A stretch of DNA of 38,018 bases, taken from positions 1 to 38,018 of the forward strand of contig JAUYKZ010000004.1 of the NCBI GenBank assembly GCA_030704845.1. The letters run 5' to 3'. Below the pieces are notes generated by a model that made no database searches, was not told where the DNA came from, and was given only the letters and a program-made list of their open reading frames with translations. How positions within the stretch are numbered: the stretch's first letter is position 1; each line of letters begins with the position of its first letter. Shown piece by piece: positions 1-32,802 of the stretch. Origin of the DNA: an archaeon. GTDB lineage: Archaea > Nanobdellota > Nanobdellia > Woesearchaeales > GW2011-AR9. The translations under genes were made by a program, and so were the position numbers.

Positions 1-28
1 TTTCGCTCCACTTCGTTCCGCTCACCTC

Positions 29-143
29 GCTTAACACGGCATATACGGTTCGCTCGTTGCACTTCGCTCACCCATATTTTGCAGTGGTGCGCTAACGCGC
101 TATTATACCACTGCAAAACATCGTATATGCCGGAACGTTAAGC
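29..143 (+). repeat. attC-like recombination site 1 (large imperfect palindrome)
   Basis: The ends are GCTTAAC (29-35) and GTTAAGC (137-143). They match the integron attC core consensus RYYYAAC ... GTTRRRY and are perfectly complementary to each other. After an unequal spacer (1 base on the left, 4 on the right) follows an 11-bp inner stem, CGGCATATACG (37-47) with CGTATATGCCG (122-132). The apical part holds a further 12-bp hairpin, TTTTGCAGTGGT (77-88) with ACCACTGCAAAA (107-118). Order, unequal spacer and long variable loop fit an attC site. No integrase is visible, so this is a structural inference. Confidence 0.6.
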
Positions 144-3492: not shown

Positions 3493-4818
3493 CTAAAATT
3501 TAGGCGTTCTTAAATACAATAACTGATCCTTCTGACCAATATCCATTCGATATTGAAGATTTCCTTTCTCAACATCAATTTTTGTGATTGCTTCATATGC
3601 TCTTTTTCTGGCATGGACAATATCTTCTCCTTCTCCAACCACACTAAACAATCTTCCACCGTTTACAGTAAGTGAATCAAATGAACCGTCCATTCCCGCT
3701 CCAAAGATTTGCGCGCCCTTAACCCGCCTAGCATTATTTATTCCAAAAATCTTTTTACCAATATTATCTGAATAATCATCAGGATAACCTTTCACTGCTC
3801 CAACGACACAAACCCGAACTTTATCATTAAAAGATAAATCGATTTCATCCAATCTTCCTTCAAGACTAGCTAAAACCACTTCACCATAATCAGTTTTTAA
3901 TCCAGGTAGAACAGCTTGACATTCTGGATCTCCCCAACGAGCATTATATTCGATTACTTTTATTTTTTGATCTCTAGTAATAATTCCGCCGAGGTATAAT
4001 ATACCACCAAAAGGCGTTCCTTCTTGACGTAAACCATCTACAGTTTTCTGAAGAAGTTCTTGTTCGATATATTCTTCTAATCCTTTAGTTATCAAAGTTG
4101 GAGAAATCGCTCCCATTCCCCCAGTTTGAGGCCCGCTGTCATTGATAAACAAACGTTTATAATCTCTTGATGATGGAAAAAAACGACAAGTTGTTCCATC
4201 GGTAACTGCAAAATAAGAAAATTCTTCTCCGATTAATCCTTCCTCAATCAAGAAAGTTTCACCAGCTTTCCCAAAATCTGACATCTCTCTAATTGCACGA
4301 AGAGCTGATTTAAATGAAGTTGCAAGAAGAGCTCCTTTACCACCACATAATCCAGAAGCTTTTATGTAAAGTGGTTTAGATTTATCGGTCCGATATAATT
4401 CTTCTACATAATCGGAAGCCTGCCAACGATTATTAAAAATTTCATACGCTGGAGAAGGAATTCCGTGTCTTCTCATGAATTCTCTTGACCAAGCCTTATC
4501 CCATTCAATTCGCGATGCTGCTTGAGTTGGACCAAATACATCAAATCCGTTCTGTTGAAGAAGATTAACGGCCCCATTAGCTATTGCATCATCTTGAGCT
4601 ACATCAATCAAATCTGGAGAATATTTTATTGCTAAATATAACAACGAATCTGGGTCATTCAACGAACAATTTTTATCGATAGCTACCGGTTTATCGCGGT
4701 TGTAAATCATAAAATCGTTCCCAGGCGTTACCAATATTTCTTCTACTAACGGACTTTTCTCATATGCCTTAGAGATAACATGTTCCCTAGCACCAGATCC
4801 AATAATCATTACCCTCAT
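3493..4818 (-). CDS. purD: Phosphoribosylamine-glycine ligase (GAR synthetase)
   Basis: This enzyme joins phosphoribosylamine and glycine with ATP in step two of purine synthesis. The 441 residues are close to the usual family length. Visible motifs are the N-terminal GSGAREH, the ATP-grasp segment with SGLCGGKGALLA, GPQTGGMGAISPT, and the signature EYNARWGDPECQAVLP. A C-terminal beta-barrel part follows. It is the last gene of a minus-strand run. Its ATG shares one base with the stop codon of the VKOR gene upstream, so the two are translationally coupled, an unexpected partner for a purine gene. No other purine genes are in the window. Confidence 0.93.
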   Translation of the reverse strand: MRVMIIGSGAREHVISKAYEKSPLVEEILVTPGNDFMIYNRDKPVAIDKNCSLNDPDSLLYLAIKYSPDLIDVAQDDAIANGAVNLLQQNGFDVFGPTQAASRIEWDKAWSREFMRRHGIPSPAYEIFNNRWQASDYVEELYRTDKSKPLYIKASGLCGGKGALLATSFKSALRAIREMSDFGKAGETFLIEEGLIGEEFSYFAVTDGTTCRFFPSSRDYKRLFINDSGPQTGGMGAISPTLITKGLEEYIEQELLQKTVDGLRQEGTPFGGILYLGGIITRDQKIKVIEYNARWGDPECQAVLPGLKTDYGEVVLASLEGRLDEIDLSFNDKVRVCVVGAVKGYPDDYSDNIGKKIFGINNARRVKGAQIFGAGMDGSFDSLTVNGGRLFSVVGEGEDIVHARKRAYEAITKIDVEKGNLQYRMDIGQKDQLLYLRTPKF

Positions 4819-5276
4819 TATTTTAGAACTAATAGATAGCTGTTAATAAAGATTATGACTGTTAAAATTGCAGAAATGATACAGTAAAAACAATAATCCT
4901 TAATGACAAATGCCTGAATTAAAATTAGAATTATAGAAAATAAAATAGAACCGCCGGCAGCTAGAAGCACAGGCAGGGCTAATAAGTTAAGTAAAGAAGG
5001 AACAATTATCATTGAAAGTACGGCCAGAAACATTGAAAGAAAAAATAAAACGCCAAGGGTTTCATTTCTGATCCAAAATATGTGAGACCATCTGCTTTCC
5101 GTAACCACACTACAATCATGATTTAGCGGACAAACCAGTGGTTGTTTTGGATTTTGTTTCTGTTTCTGATGCTTCCAAAGCAGATAACCAGCATTGATAG
5201 TTCCTAAAGAGATTACCACCAGAAGAACCGTTAATAGATTTAAATTTGCGATGTTATTTACCCCAATGAAGAACAA
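4818..5276 (-). CDS. Vitamin K epoxide reductase (VKOR)-family membrane protein
   Basis: An integral membrane protein of about 152 residues with four or five hydrophobic segments. It has both VKOR cysteine pairs: the loop pair C49 and C55 (CPLNHDC) and the active-site pair C129 and C132 (CFYC) at the start of the last membrane helix. Prokaryotic VKOR reoxidises a thioredoxin-like partner and passes electrons to quinone, supporting disulfide formation in secreted proteins. No thioredoxin domain is fused here. The start given is a TTG, which overlaps the upstream gene by 23 bases. No ATG is available before the first membrane segment, so the exact start is uncertain. Confidence 0.85.
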   Translation of the reverse strand: MFFIGVNNIANLNLLTVLLVVISLGTINAGYLLWKHQKQKQNPKQPLVCPLNHDCSVVTESRWSHIFWIRNETLGVLFFLSMFLAVLSMIIVPSLLNLLALPVLLAAGGSILFSIILILIQAFVIKDYCFYCIISAILTVIIFINSYLLVLK

Positions 5277-5634
5277 TTAATGCTATAGTTGAAAATAATA
5301 TTGCAATATCTCTGAATAGAACGTCTAAGAAACCATAATTAGCTACAATGATTGATAATAAAGTTAACCCAGACAATTCTGCGGCAAAAACTATTTTTTT
5401 GCCGCTTAACAACCATCCTGCCAAAACTAACTGATAAATTGAGAATGAAACCAGAAGAAAATTTTCAGAAATTGAATTTCTTAACCAGAACGGAAAAAAA
5501 CCAACCCATGCATCTGGTTGAAGGAATGAAGCAATAGCTGCATAAAGGAAAACCGTAGCAACCCCAGATCTAAGAAAAAAAGAAGAAGTTTTTATTCGAT
5601 CATTCAATTGATTCTTATTATTAATGAAAACCAT
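5254..5634 (-). CDS. DoxX-like membrane protein
   Basis: A protein of 126 residues with four predicted membrane segments. The N-terminus has a short polar part followed by FFLRSGVATVFLYAAIASFL and a proline-containing loop, the style of DoxX/DoxD-like small membrane proteins. The specific function is unknown; relatives are often tied to redox or disulfide chemistry. It overlaps the VKOR gene by 23 bases and lies 22 bases after the cupredoxin gene, so the three probably form one envelope-redox operon. Confidence 0.6.
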   Translation of the reverse strand: MVFINNKNQLNDRIKTSSFFLRSGVATVFLYAAIASFLQPDAWVGFFPFWLRNSISENFLLVSFSIYQLVLAGWLLSGKKIVFAAELSGLTLLSIIVANYGFLDVLFRDIAILFSTIALIVLHWGK

Positions 5635-5656
5635 TTAATTTCTCCAGATTCAACAA

Positions 5657-9734: not shown

Positions 9735-9827
9735 TATACTAAAATGCGTTAGATTTCGAATATATTAACGCATTTTATATATATAAAGTGCCAAAAATAA
9801 GTTCGAAAGCTTTGGCACTTTAGTATA
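9735..9827 (-). repeat. Structured repeat element, copy 1 (inverted relative to the others)
   Basis: The 93 bp read on the minus strand are identical at every base to copy 2 at 12773-12865. The terminal inverted repeats are TATACTAAA and TTTAGTATA. There are two hairpins inside: stem AAAATGCGTTA/TAACGCATTTT and stem AAAGTGCCAAA/TTTGGCACTTT. It lies between convergent genes, the HEILH protein (plus) and the SemiSWEET-like gene (minus). Confidence 0.9.
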
Positions 9828-12772: not shown

Positions 12773-12865
12773 TATACTAAAGTGCCAAAGCTTTCGAACT
12801 TATTTTTGGCACTTTATATATATAAAATGCGTTAATATATTCGAAATCTAACGCATTTTAGTATA
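12773..12865 (+). repeat. Structured repeat element, copy 2
   Basis: 93 bp, identical to copy 1 when that is reversed. It lies between pyrD and the truncated mscL gene, both on the minus strand. Its right end (TTTAGTATA read on plus) supplies the last codons and the TAA stop of mscL. Flanking TAA on both sides might be a short target duplication, but the other copies do not support a fixed one. Confidence 0.9.
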
Positions 12866-21728: not shown

Positions 21729-22121
21729 ATGCACACTTTAACTAAAAACGACAGCTGGGAAATTGATTTCATGCGCGATGACAGCGATATTAAACCTGAC
21801 GGAGTCACACCTGAAGACCTTGCGGGATGTTGCGATGTCCATTATCGGCGTGAAGAACACGGCCATAGTGCAGAAATAGAAATTACAGAAACAGTTCATG
21901 ATCTGGAACTGATTGTTACCGCTTCCGTTTATAGAATCAGTTTAGATTGCCCAGAAGAATCAATGGAATTGGAATCAGAATTTAACGTTAGACGTGTATT
22001 TAGAGGGGCAGGATGTAAAGCTAGAGCTTCCCAATATGCTAGTTGTTTAAAGGAAAAAATAGATCTTCAATATTTTTCATATAACGAAGACCAACTAAAA
22101 CTGCCTTTAATTTTCTATTAG
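21729..22121 (+). CDS. Hypothetical protein
   Basis: 130 residues from ATG 21729 (a TTG at 21714 would add five). It is not recognised. It is acidic, with no signal peptide or membrane segment. Five cysteines (C34, C35, C74, C96, C106) and a His-rich patch (CCDVHYRREEHGH) could bind metal. The middle has alternating beta-strand character (AEIEITETVHDLELIVTASV). A stand-alone gene between thrS (divergent) and the PIG-L gene. Confidence 0.55.
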   Translation: MHTLTKNDSWEIDFMRDDSDIKPDGVTPEDLAGCCDVHYRREEHGHSAEIEITETVHDLELIVTASVYRISLDCPEESMELESEFNVRRVFRGAGCKARASQYASCLKEKIDLQYFSYNEDQLKLPLIFY

Positions 22122-22172
22122 ACTTAGAGAACTTAATTATCATACAAATTAAGTTATCTGGGATATATCCTG

Positions 22173-22202
22173 GTACGAAATATTGGTATAATTATTTCGT
22201 AC
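22173..22202 (+). other. Perfect 10-bp hairpin between the hypothetical and PIG-L genes
   Basis: GTACGAAATA (22173-22182) pairs with TATTTCGTAC (22193-22202) around a 10-base loop. It could be a 3' structure for the upstream gene or an operator for the downstream one. No T-run follows, so a simple terminator is not indicated. Confidence 0.45.
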
Positions 22203-22256
22203 TTTCAGTATAAATTACGTAGATTTTTTAAACTTCAAGGTATATCTTTCATTGTA

Positions 22257-25842: not shown

Positions 25843-25939
25843 TATACTAAAGTGCCAAAGCTTTCGAACTTATTTTTGGCACTTTATATATATATATAAA
25901 ATGCGTTAATATATTCGAAATCTAACGCATTTTAGTATA
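25843..25939 (+). repeat. Structured repeat element, copy 3
   Basis: 97 bp. Identical to copies 1 and 2 except for one extra TATA in the central AT run. Outer repeats TATACTAAA (25843-25851) and TTTAGTATA (25931-25939). Arm A pairs AAAGTGCCAAA (25849-25859) with TTTGGCACTTT (25875-25885). Arm B pairs AAAATGCGTTA (25898-25908) with TAACGCATTTT (25923-25933). The loops hold TTTCGAA (25862-25868) and TTCGAAA (25914-25920), fully complementary. It sits between convergent rpl11 and the small membrane gene. Confidence 0.92.
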
Positions 25940-26410: not shown

Positions 26411-29400
26411 CTAGTGAACTTTTCTTCTTGCAATAAACATAAAACTTAGAAGACTCAGTAATGGAAGTACAACGGCTATAACTGAAGCTACTTCATTAAA
26501 AGCTCCATCCGATAATCTTCTTGGTAAAGTTCCTTCTTCTCCAAGATTCTCTACAAATAAATGTTCAGCAACAACACGATTCTTGTTAAGAACTTTTGTC
26601 CGGATATTATATTCTCCAACGTATCTCTGAGAATCATAGGCTAATTGCTGAGCAAAAACAAACCCTTCATCTCTCCTGATCTTATATGGACCAAAATAAT
26701 CACTATAAATCACACTCTCACCTAAATTCACATCATCTTTATCTAAACTTATTTCAAGATAATAATTATCAAATTCTTCTTCACCATCTTTAATTTCATC
26801 AACCCGTTCGGGAATTAACATATAAAATTCTAACAACCCTTGTTTTTGATCAACATCAAGTGCAGTCCCAATAACCCCCTGTTTTGGACCCACATCTTTC
26901 TGGAAAACTTCTTTTCCCTGAGAAGTAAATGTAATTTTAAAAGAATCACTTTGCGAAGCAATACCTCTTTTTAATTTACAAGTAGATTCAAACGTTTCTC
27001 CCGGTTTTACTCTTATCTCCCCACAAGTTCCAAGACTAGATTGTAACAATTTTCCGCTAATTTTTTCTCCGGTATAAGTCAAACCACTCAAAACTAAAGT
27101 TTGTTTTTGAGCAATTTCTCCTTCGTTTAAAATTCTTCTTACAGCTTTATTCAATTTGTTTTCAATTAGTTGTGGTCCTTTCTCGCCAATTATAAAGTAA
27201 CTAAACCCAAGTGCTTGAGCTTCCAGATGAACAAAACCATCCGATACACCAACAATTTCGGCAGGCAACTCTTCCCATAAACCGGTTAGTTCATTATAAT
27301 GATACATCCCAATATCTTCATTACTTAATCCTACATCGTTAACCCATTCTTCTGGTACCATGAATTTGATTACCGCCGCTCTAGCAACATCTACATTGAT
27401 ATCAAGTTGTTTATATTGAACACCTTGGAATGATTTTGCGACAGGTAAGTTAGCTAAAGATTCAATGGCTACTATTCCAACCTGATCTACAGCGGGTATG
27501 TCAGCTAAGTTTGATGTAGCACTAATTTGTTCCGGAGAATTATCAAAAGATACTTCTTGAACCATAGCTGCTCTTTCTACATTCTGATTTGCAGAATAAA
27601 CTAAACCTTTCTCATCAACGCCAGGAACTACAAAACTAACTTCTTCTACAGCAAATTCTTCAGAATCTACCATTACATTTACTTCTTCTCCAACATTAGC
27701 TATTGGTACCGGAAGATTTGCACTTGCTACAACTTCAACTAAATCCTGATTACTCAATTGACCAATTAAAGTAGATATCTTTTTTGTGTATACCGGCTGA
27801 ACATTTACTTTTTCAATTAGTTCAAATAATCTTTTTTCTTGTTCAACTAAAACAGATAATTCGGCTTCAGAAAGACCTTTATTTTCTTCAGATATTTTTG
27901 CTTGTAAGAAAGCATCCACTTCATCTTCATTTATGATTGATGTTCCGGCCACGTCAGAAACAATAAATGGTTGTAATAAAATTACTTTATCCGCATTATT
28001 AGTTATCGAAATAACCACACTTTCTTCAGGATTAATAGACTCTGTTTGTACGGCTGCTGCTTCTGCTGTTGCAGTTTCTCCAGGAGTTAATCCTGCTGTT
28101 GATGTCGTCGCTGCTCCGACTACTGCTGCATCTTCGCTAACAATCGTTGTAACCGTTTTAGGAGATACGGTTGTAATATCTACCGTAACTAAATTGTTTT
28201 GAACATATTGTTGAGTTTCAGTAGTTGTTGCGGGTGCTGTCGTAGTGGTGGTCGATGTAGTTGTGCTTGTTGTAGTGGTTATAGCTGTAGTCGTACTTGT
28301 AGAAGAACTACTTCCTCCTCCACCTCCGCCTCCACCGCCGCTACTAGTAGTAGTGAAACTAATTTGTGTTGAAGAAGTTTGAGGATTTCCCGGTGTATCT
28401 TGACATCTGATGTAATACACGTAAGCTCTTCCTGAGGATAAACTTGCTAAAGCTACCGAATGTGACGTTCCCCCGCCACCACCCATCGTATCGGTCATGC
28501 TTGCATAAGCTTGGTCAGTCGTAGAATATTTGCATGTTGCTGCTTCATTAGTTGTTGCACTTAAAGTCGCCGAGGTTGTAGAAACCGAACTAGAACTGGA
28601 GGATGAAATGGTAGGAGGAGTAGAATCTACGATAAATGTTAAAGTCTCCGTATCATTTAAATTGCCCGCTGCATCGCTAGCAAATACAGTAAGAGTATGT
28701 GTGCCGTCAATAATTGAAGCCGAGGAAACAGTTAAACTAGCATTATATAAAGAAGTATTAGTTGAACTTCCAGTCAAATTACCCGGATTGGAACCGTTTG
28801 AAATCTGGAATAAAACGGAAGCAATTCCTGTATCATCGCTCACGGAAGCATTGAAGACAATCGTATTTCCCAAACTATATGTGGCCCCATTTGTTGGAGA
28901 ATTGATAGCACTTACGGAAGGGATTGTGGTGTCTGGAGCAGCTCCAGAAGATGCCGCTTCAAGAGATATTTGAGAAATTGTTGCGCCACCACAAGGACGT
29001 TCAATTTCACCGGGACAGATAAATCTAACAAAATAATATGGTCCGTATTCTTCACCAGAGATATTAGTTATTGTAGCGTTAGCCCAGTTTGAAGGTTCAG
29101 TCCAATTAACAATATGAACCCCCACAGAAACAAAAGCATTGGTTAGATTAATTACCGTAGTTAAATTTTCCCAATCAGTACCATTATAATAAAACCAATC
29201 CCAGAAGTCAGCTGCATGATTACCTATGCTAGAACCGGCAGTAACATTGAAGTATGCTGCAGTAAATGTAGTATCTGACCCCATATATACCGTATCAAGA
29301 TCTGAAGTAACACCGTCGGGGAAGAAAAAAACGTCAGTTCCGCCGTTTCCATAATCATCTGTTGCATCAACGTCATTAGCATCATCGGTATCATTCCATA

Positions 29401-29656
29401 ATCTATCATCTAAAGAAGTATCAGTATCATTAAACAAATAAACACTTACATTAAGATCTCCGGTTGTTAAATTACCAACGAACCGAGTTTGCAAAGAATA
29501 TCCTACTACAGCCCCAGTAATTAAAGAATCTGAAGAACCGCCATAATTAATTAAAATAAATGTTGAAGCTAGAGTTATCAGAACTAAAATAATTGCTTTA
29601 TATTCTAAGTTGTACTTCAATCTATACCATCTATTACTTTTCACCTTCTTTTTCAT
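26411..29656 (-). CDS. Large surface protein with PGF-pre-PGF domain
   Basis: About 1081 residues from ATG 29656; the frame runs on to 29758, but that would overlap the topA promoter. Order: basic N-terminus; membrane helix AIILVLITLASTFILI; a LITGAVVG motif; Asn/Thr-rich sequence with many N-glycosylation sites; Ig/FN3-like region (SPTNGATYSLGNTIVFNASV); a run of nine Gly; a Ser/Thr-rich mucin-like linker; a charged alpha part. A PGF-pre-PGF domain follows (FMVPEEWVND ... YHYNELTGLWEELP ... GFSYFIIGEKG), then beta domains and a C-terminal membrane helix with an ARRKVH tail. It is probably anchored at both ends of the outer cell surface and heavily glycosylated. Confidence 0.85.
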   Translation of the reverse strand: MKKKVKSNRWYRLKYNLEYKAIILVLITLASTFILINYGGSSDSLITGAVVGYSLQTRFVGNLTTGDLNVSVYLFNDTDTSLDDRLWNDTDDANDVDATDDYGNGGTDVFFFPDGVTSDLDTVYMGSDTTFTAAYFNVTAGSSIGNHAADFWDWFYYNGTDWENLTTVINLTNAFVSVGVHIVNWTEPSNWANATITNISGEEYGPYYFVRFICPGEIERPCGGATISQISLEAASSGAAPDTTIPSVSAINSPTNGATYSLGNTIVFNASVSDDTGIASVLFQISNGSNPGNLTGSSTNTSLYNASLTVSSASIIDGTHTLTVFASDAAGNLNDTETLTFIVDSTPPTISSSSSSSVSTTSATLSATTNEAATCKYSTTDQAYASMTDTMGGGGGTSHSVALASLSSGRAYVYYIRCQDTPGNPQTSSTQISFTTTSSGGGGGGGGGSSSSTSTTTAITTTTSTTTSTTTTTAPATTTETQQYVQNNLVTVDITTVSPKTVTTIVSEDAAVVGAATTSTAGLTPGETATAEAAAVQTESINPEESVVISITNNADKVILLQPFIVSDVAGTSIINEDEVDAFLQAKISEENKGLSEAELSVLVEQEKRLFELIEKVNVQPVYTKKISTLIGQLSNQDLVEVVASANLPVPIANVGEEVNVMVDSEEFAVEEVSFVVPGVDEKGLVYSANQNVERAAMVQEVSFDNSPEQISATSNLADIPAVDQVGIVAIESLANLPVAKSFQGVQYKQLDINVDVARAAVIKFMVPEEWVNDVGLSNEDIGMYHYNELTGLWEELPAEIVGVSDGFVHLEAQALGFSYFIIGEKGPQLIENKLNKAVRRILNEGEIAQKQTLVLSGLTYTGEKISGKLLQSSLGTCGEIRVKPGETFESTCKLKRGIASQSDSFKITFTSQGKEVFQKDVGPKQGVIGTALDVDQKQGLLEFYMLIPERVDEIKDGEEEFDNYYLEISLDKDDVNLGESVIYSDYFGPYKIRRDEGFVFAQQLAYDSQRYVGEYNIRTKVLNKNRVVAEHLFVENLGEEGTLPRRLSDGAFNEVASVIAVVLPLLSLLSFMFIARRKVH
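28311..28338 (-). repeat. Trinucleotide repeat coding nine glycines
   Basis: A run of CCN/CCG/CCA triplets on plus encodes nine consecutive Gly in the surface protein. Such runs can change length by slippage. Confidence 0.6.
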
Positions 29657-29730
29657 TGAAATTAAGTAATAAGTAAAGAGAACTCCCTTAAAAACCTTAC
29701 GGCTAGATAGCGACAAGAATAAACCAAACC

Positions 29731-29740
29731 TTTTTAAAGA
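29731..29740 (+). promoter_or_regulatory. TATA box of topA
   Basis: TTTTTAAAGA lies about 25-34 bases upstream of ATG 29765 and inside the unlikely longer version of the divergent surface-protein frame. Confidence 0.5.
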
Positions 29741-29764
29741 AAAGTCCAAATTCGTCATTTATCC

Positions 29765-32522: not shown

Positions 32523-32802
32523 TTTAGAGGGAGAGCTAGGCTGGCGCGCTAGTCCTGCGTTGTTACCGTGAGCGGACTTTACACGGAGCCGAAACCCAAA
32601 GAAGGGCCTATCTTGTTTTATTGGTCCCTGCTGTCTTTGTTGACGGCTTGTCCTCTGGGATGGTCATACTGGGAATCAGGTCAGACCCTGACGGGAGCAG
32701 CCTTAACCTGTATGTTCCTTGTTCAGAGGGTCGCAAGTTTGAGAAGCTGTAGGGAATCACCAGTGAGGCTTGGTTAGTTCGACCGCGGGTGTGCCCCTAA
32801 AC
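32523..32802 (+). ncRNA. ffs: Signal recognition particle RNA (archaeal 7S)
   Basis: The RNA is about 280 bases, far richer in GC than its surroundings. The 5' and 3' ends pair (TTTAG at 32523-32527 with CTAAA at 32797-32801, extended by AGGG with CCC). The Alu-type 5' part has GCTAGGCTGGCGCG and TGTTACC. The SRP54-binding helix 8 is at 32679-32702, with GGTCAG on one side and GGGAGCAGCC on the other, closed by the loop TGAC (URRC type) instead of GGAA. Exact ends are estimated from pairing. It targets nascent membrane and secreted proteins, which are abundant here. Confidence 0.92.

Follow-up and report, generated by a model that had tools for sequence, protein, structure and literature searches.

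The DNA analyzed here, hereafter the window, is a stretch of 38,018 bp that corresponds to contig C17 of G000, a Woesearchaeota-type archaeal MAG of 24 contigs and 1,015,533 bp. It encodes the archaeal SRP RNA and a protein of 1115 aa that has bacterial Ig-like domains (Big_7) and is probably a surface protein, and its first 141 bp are a GC-rich palindromic repeat. Weaker relatives of this repeat (75–82%) were found in contigs of genome G074, and it forms a repeat family of its own. The earlier note on this DNA had listed three near-identical copies of an intergenic element, named F1 here, and these were recovered: two are identical over 93 bp, and the third differs by TATA only (Table 1). A fourth, decayed copy was absent from that list. 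It gave the next-best matches in the window to a matrix of terminal inverted repeats (TIRs) built from other genomes (10.1 and 7.2 bits, in inverted orientation), has the ends TAGACTTAG.../...CTTTCAGTATA (also given as TAGACTTAGAG.../...TTTCAGTATA), and is predicted to fold into two hairpins (z = -4.7). An Rfam scan of the window at gathering score detected only Archaea_SRP and no family for the element.

Table 1 Features of the window; substructures of F1 are given for the forward exact copy, and the outer TA for the 97-bp copy.
Feature	Position	Strand	Basis or remark
GC-rich palindromic repeat ending the contig	1..141		98–100% match to L109:1-149
F1, exact 93-bp copy	9735..9827	-	sequence
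F1, exact 93-bp copy	12773..12865	+	sequence
Left TIR, 28 bp: TATACTAAAGTGCCAAAGCTTTCGAACT	12773..12800	+	24.2 bits, matrix without host genome
Palindromic arm A, stem GTGCCAAA/TTTGGCAC at 12782-12789/12805-12812, loop with TTCGAAC	12773..12820	+	sequence
Central junction TTTATATATATAAAAT, inner ends joined at a TA	12813..12828		F2 insertion site elsewhere in the genome (L038)
Palindromic arm B, stem AATGCGTTA/TAACGCATT at 12826-12834/12849-12857, loop with TTCGAA	12819..12865	-	sequence
Right TIR, 28 bp: TATACTAAAATGCGTTAGATTTCGAATA	12838..12865	-	27.6 bits, matrix without host genome
Decayed 94-bp two-hairpin relative	22119..22212		TIR-matrix matches and two predicted hairpins
F1, 97-bp copy	25843..25939	+	96% match to the 93-mer; sole change is +TATA in the central (TA)n
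Outer TA, one copy of the putative TA target duplication (partner 25938-25939)	25843..25844		nested insertions
Protein with Big_7 domains	26411..29758		1115 aa
Archaeal SRP RNA	32529..32797		Rfam RF01857, 100.6 bits

Sequence searches of the host MAG, together with inspected stretches, revealed 18 exact full-length F1 copies of 93 bp and about 10 near-exact ones, which differ by one or two changes or by an extended (TA)n run at the centre. The full-length total is 28 (~30), and partial and nested copies are also present, the partial ones often at contig ends. This copy number is far beyond chance. Many copies genome-wide had been predicted from the three in 38 kb, and the 18 exact copies also bear out the proposed recent spread. 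A local duplication, which had been named as the finding that would speak against this, is excluded, as the flanks of the copies are mutually unrelated; the nested filled and empty sites described below point to movement. With a simple ORF caller, all of the placed full copies (27/27) were intergenic, and the orientation of the genes around them was ++ in 8 cases, -- in 7, divergent in 6, convergent in 5, and unknown in 1. One copy (L026, G000:C8:56510-56601) is unlike every other in having the right end TTTTAGTAG and the direct repeat AGTAGAATTA on both sides.

The ends of F1 are bipartite inverted repeats of 28 bp, TATACTAAAA-N5-TAATTTTCGAACA. The 9-bp inverted repeats described earlier do exist as the outer 9-mers TATACTAAA/TTTAGTATA, but the real TIR is imperfect and extends over ~28 bp; the 93-mer agrees with its reverse complement at 74% over positions 1-93. 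Similarly, the two hairpins do have different stems, as was claimed, but the arms have their end and loop motifs in common: read inward from the outside, both show TATACTAAAA and then a TAATTTTCGAACA-like motif at positions 17-28. Each half consists of a TIR and its own complement, which makes it palindromic and hairpin-capable. When the 93-mer was folded as DNA, the two-arm fold was the MFE structure (-19.6 kcal/mol); when it was folded as RNA, a single long hairpin (-28.8 kcal/mol) was slightly better than the arms folded apart (-26.1 kcal/mol), and members from other genomes adopt the two-arm fold as RNA too. The predicted folds of intact copies have z about -7 to -11. The outer end is TATACT in all 258 arms compared, whereas the inner end is TATACA in 147, TATATA in 60, TATACC in 33, and TATACT in only 7. 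This alteration suggests that the inner ends are disabled and that only the paired arms move.

A pattern search of the host MAG for TATACT...AGTATA identified a second 93-bp family, F2, with the same ends as F1 (TATACTGAACG...CGTTGAGTATA). It is found at ~18 places, up to eight of which lie at contig ends and may have been counted twice; further types occur as single copies each. F2 is repeatedly nested in F1 or adjoins it, and the nested loci allowed the comparison of filled and empty sites that the earlier note had recommended. Removal of the 89-bp core and one TA gave back the exact 93-mer at three different TAs (L039, L040, and L038) and with one mismatch in L041, and no alternative duplication length fits all nested loci. 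The target duplication is therefore TA. F2 is also located exactly at the centre of an element of a third type (L341). F1, whose TATACT ends are identical to those of F2, most likely duplicates a TA as well. Target sites read from flanks joined over the TA in three genomes (n = 42, 50, and 15) showed A-TA-T at 67–73% on both sides, symmetrically, with the consensus ATATAT. TA-restricted insertion with TA duplication is a hallmark of IS630 transposition, and ISY100 does so in vitro (PMC2170065). At more than one locus (L048:338-522, L053, and L045), F1 and F2 lie side by side and share a TA, and such a composite could possibly move as a 182-bp unit. Elsewhere in the MAG, a GC-rich sequence with the ends TATACTGG.../...CCAGTATA (G000:C21:65563-65639) is possibly a different TA-inserting MITE.

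Taken by its features, F1 is short (93 bp), has no ORF of its own, carries TIRs of ~28 bp, is dispersed in many copies with unrelated flanks, and has a TA duplication as seen through its sister family F2 with the same TATACT ends. The element had not been recognized as a named REP, MITE, or riboswitch family. This holds for Rfam, where there is no match, but not for MITEs, as TIRs, a TA duplication, multiple non-coding copies, and IS630-like ends place it within their definition. F1 is best read from its sequence as an IS630/Tc1-mariner-type MITE that was recently active and has an unusual two-palindrome build. The literature that was searched contains no description of MITEs in Woesearchaeota, and the element appears to be previously undescribed as far as that literature shows.

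Relatives occur in the family of the host and in one distant genus. They keep the frame TATACTAAAA - stem A - loop TTTTCGAACA - stem A' - TTTTGTATATACAAAA (or TTTGGTATATACCAAA/TTTATATATATAAA) - stem B - loop - stem B' - TTTTAGTATA while having other stems. Of the order's 353 genomes, 12 contain the pattern, including bursts of 27, 55, and 19; the other copy-rich genomes of the order are Candidatus Woesearchaeota. One degenerate member (L035:1501-1645, genome G027) has a third, unrelated hairpin at its centre. Pattern scans of GTDB and IMG/VR yielded mostly chance matches, which lay outside Woesearchaeota and did not show the two-hairpin frame, and no viral contig contained a real member or encoded a relative of the transposase described below. 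Contig C23, which is flanked by element halves, was considered as a composite transposon and rejected: its genes are ordinary ones (a tRNA, an ORF similar to a tRNA synthetase, and, judged by eye, phosphoribosyl-type enzymes), and its boundaries reflect an assembly break.

The stems were analyzed by direct comparison of the arms, since F2 was misaligned in the full-element alignment. Among 84 distinct stems, 82% of the 14 x 84 stem cells are standard pairs, compared with a mean of 60% and a maximum of 64% in 2000 shuffles and with at most 58% in slid registers; stem cells with a double change number 251, versus at most 113 in the controls, although kinship among the sequences inflates these pairing counts. 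All four Watson-Crick pairs are found at seven stem positions. Fully compensated changes were observed inside one genome, for example in G072 (AAAAGTGC/GCACTTTT versus AAAAGCAC/GTGCTTTT), and some stems keep uncorrected mismatches. The loop is inverted relative to otherwise matching arms in 6 of the 258 arms (two in L336 and one each in L069, L442, L141, and L454); between L336 and L068, both arms are flipped together. When a polymerase switches template between short inverted repeats, the signature reported is arm homogenisation along with an inverted spacer (PMC8604942), and template switching has been proposed to maintain hairpins (PMC8794818). On this analysis, it is the likeliest cause of both the paired stem changes and the loop flips.

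It should be noted that IS630 mechanics offer no reason for the hairpin arms. One reading, to which we assign a low probability, is that the arms themselves take part in transposition, with a hairpin-bearing intermediate in which they are self-copied, so that compensated stems and loop flips arise with movement. If true, this mode would be one not known for IS630/Tc1-mariner elements. We consider it very improbable that the hairpins are the functional part, with selection acting on the fold of a structured RNA, a terminator, or a regulator and with the copies kept for that use. The strong stem covariation, the stability of the predicted folds, and the consistently intergenic position of the copies would fit such a role. 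However, the copies show no preference with respect to gene orientation, no Rfam family corresponds to them, they occur in patchy bursts in few genomes of the order, and insertion is recent, as the nesting indicates. Moreover, template switching can yield compensatory changes without selection (PMC8604942; PMC8794818). Selection on the fold may still act as a secondary effect.

A copying of the element through its hairpins (rolling hairpin or flip-flop), which would produce loop inversions and paired stem changes during transposition, is likewise very improbable. The double flip between L336 and L068, the four single flips, and the fully compensated pairs inside one genome are what it would leave behind, but template switching at short inverted repeats during ordinary replication gives rise to identical traces, uncorrected mismatches persist in some stems, and no replicative enzyme is known for it. 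Template switching acting on a MITE is retained as the preferred reading of the arms.

No DDE_3 gene was detected in the host MAG or in the copy-rich genomes G072 and G073. A candidate was found on L109 (JAUYJY010000011.1, 7,644 bp), a contig binned with another archaeal MAG that carries one exact F1 copy. Its ends overlap the start of the window and the end of contig C10 by exactly 141 bp, as expected of neighbours in one k=141 assembly graph, and the contig is probably misbinned. The tetranucleotide composition of L109 is overall closer to the host genome than to its own bin, although ambiguous piece by piece. At positions 4533-5646, it carries an IS630-family IS with OrfA, which has HTH domains, and OrfB, which has DDE_3 (Pfam DDE_3/HTH_33), in two frames that overlap at A8, as in frameshifted OrfAB. 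With NCBIfam IS630, OrfB scored above the cut-off (E=1.7e-33) and OrfA below it (E=6e-24) because it is partial. A TIR matrix built from MITE ends of other genomes only, with the host genome excluded, was run over L109. It returned the F1 ends first (27.6 and 24.2 bits) and then exactly both ends of the IS in inverted orientation (4533-4560 on the + strand, 16.8 bits; 5619-5646 on the - strand, 11.8 bits), the next match having 4.9 bits. As the fifth outer base is G in the ISs (TATAG) but C in the MITEs (TATAC), and as L109 was assigned to a different bin, this IS is a candidate autonomous partner. Its relatives in G366, with transposases 66–71% identical, have the ends TATAGTTAGGGTAAGTAATAATCGAACA / TATAGTATAGGTATTTAATTTTCGAATA, in which the 28-bp spacing and the inner motif are the same; IS630s of the order that are more distant have TATAGTAA...AATTTTCGGAA ends. 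In G031 and G013, the IS630 elements have ends, TATAGATAATTCTG, that the matrix does not match, and they were rejected as partners. An IS whose outer ends read exactly TATACT was not found, the IS630 ends observed starting with TATAG or TATGG, and no autonomous element emerged when ORFs were scanned for single unpaired arms nearby. The mover of F1 is most likely an IS630-type transposase.

Strand exchange at a 2-bp TA overlap by a serine recombinase (IS607-like) or another site-specific recombinase would look the same in sequence data as a TA duplication; the TA at both ends and the net gain of the core plus 2 bp would also be expected from recombination of a circle. Nevertheless, this is hardly probable in view of the 28-bp TIR format and inner motif, which match IS630 elements, the ATATAT target preference, and a (non-exhaustive) search that linked no recombinase family to F1 ends. 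Least probable of all is a REP/REPIN-like or IS200/IS605-like element whose single-stranded hairpins are moved by a Y1 HUH transposase (RAYT): the two inverted hairpins do look like a REP doublet, but no Y1_Tnp (PF01797) was found in the 97% complete host MAG, the GT(A/G)G head is absent from the hairpin foot, the arms starting with TATACTAAA, and IS200/IS605 elements are without TIRs and make no such target duplications (PMC2817692), whereas F1 has true TIRs and a clean TA duplication. The same two features do not fit an IS200/IS605-derived (PATE) identity, and a HUH (Y1) recombinase using the same ends, which the earlier note had suggested looking for, is not indicated.

We consider it highly probable that F1 is a MITE moved in trans by an IS630-type DDE transposase, with arms that evolve by template switching. 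In the mechanism that we infer, the transposase would bind both 28-bp ends (inner motif ~TTCGAACA, outer TATACTAAAA), excise the element, and paste it at a TA, best within ATATAT, which is thereby duplicated. The two palindromes abut at a TA with inner ends (TATACA, TATATA, or TATACC instead of TATACT) that are presumably inactive, and a replicating polymerase would switch template between the short inverted repeats, so that stems stay paired and loops sometimes flip.

Hardly any mobile elements have been described from DPANN archaea. The family to which F1 belongs records recent transposition in ~1-Mb genomes, accounts for broken contigs and misbinned sequence in MAGs of this kind, and singles out one IS630 group. 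In several genomes, bursts rich in copies occur and the bin contains no gene for a transposase. With more than 100 distinct arms, whose stems are free-running yet always paired and whose loops are flipped, the family also provides a natural data set on selection versus template switching.

MITEs of the IS630/Tc1-mariner family are known in prokaryotes, for example the Correia elements and RUP. Like these, F1 is ~100 bp long and non-coding, has TIRs and a TA duplication, is present in tens of intergenic copies, and lacks a transposase of its own. Unlike them, its halves are each palindromic, with stems that differ between the halves and altered inner ends; the stems covary across genomes, the loops invert, and the host is a DPANN archaeon. 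The IS630s of L109 (4533-5646) and G366 resemble F1 in their bipartite ends of 28 bp, whose inner motif and spacing are the same, but they encode an HTH and DDE transposase, their ends start with TATAG/TATGG rather than TATAC, and they have no hairpin arms. REP/REPIN elements with RAYT (PMC2817692) resemble F1 in their paired inverted hairpins, intergenic location, and complementary stem changes; F1 differs from them by the missing GT(A/G)G head and Y1 transposase and by its TA duplication and TIRs. Finally, template switching at short inverted repeats (PMC8604942, PMC8794818) involves the same arm homogenisation and spacer inversion as in the F1 arms, but it is a mutational mechanism rather than an element, and here it would act on a mobile family.
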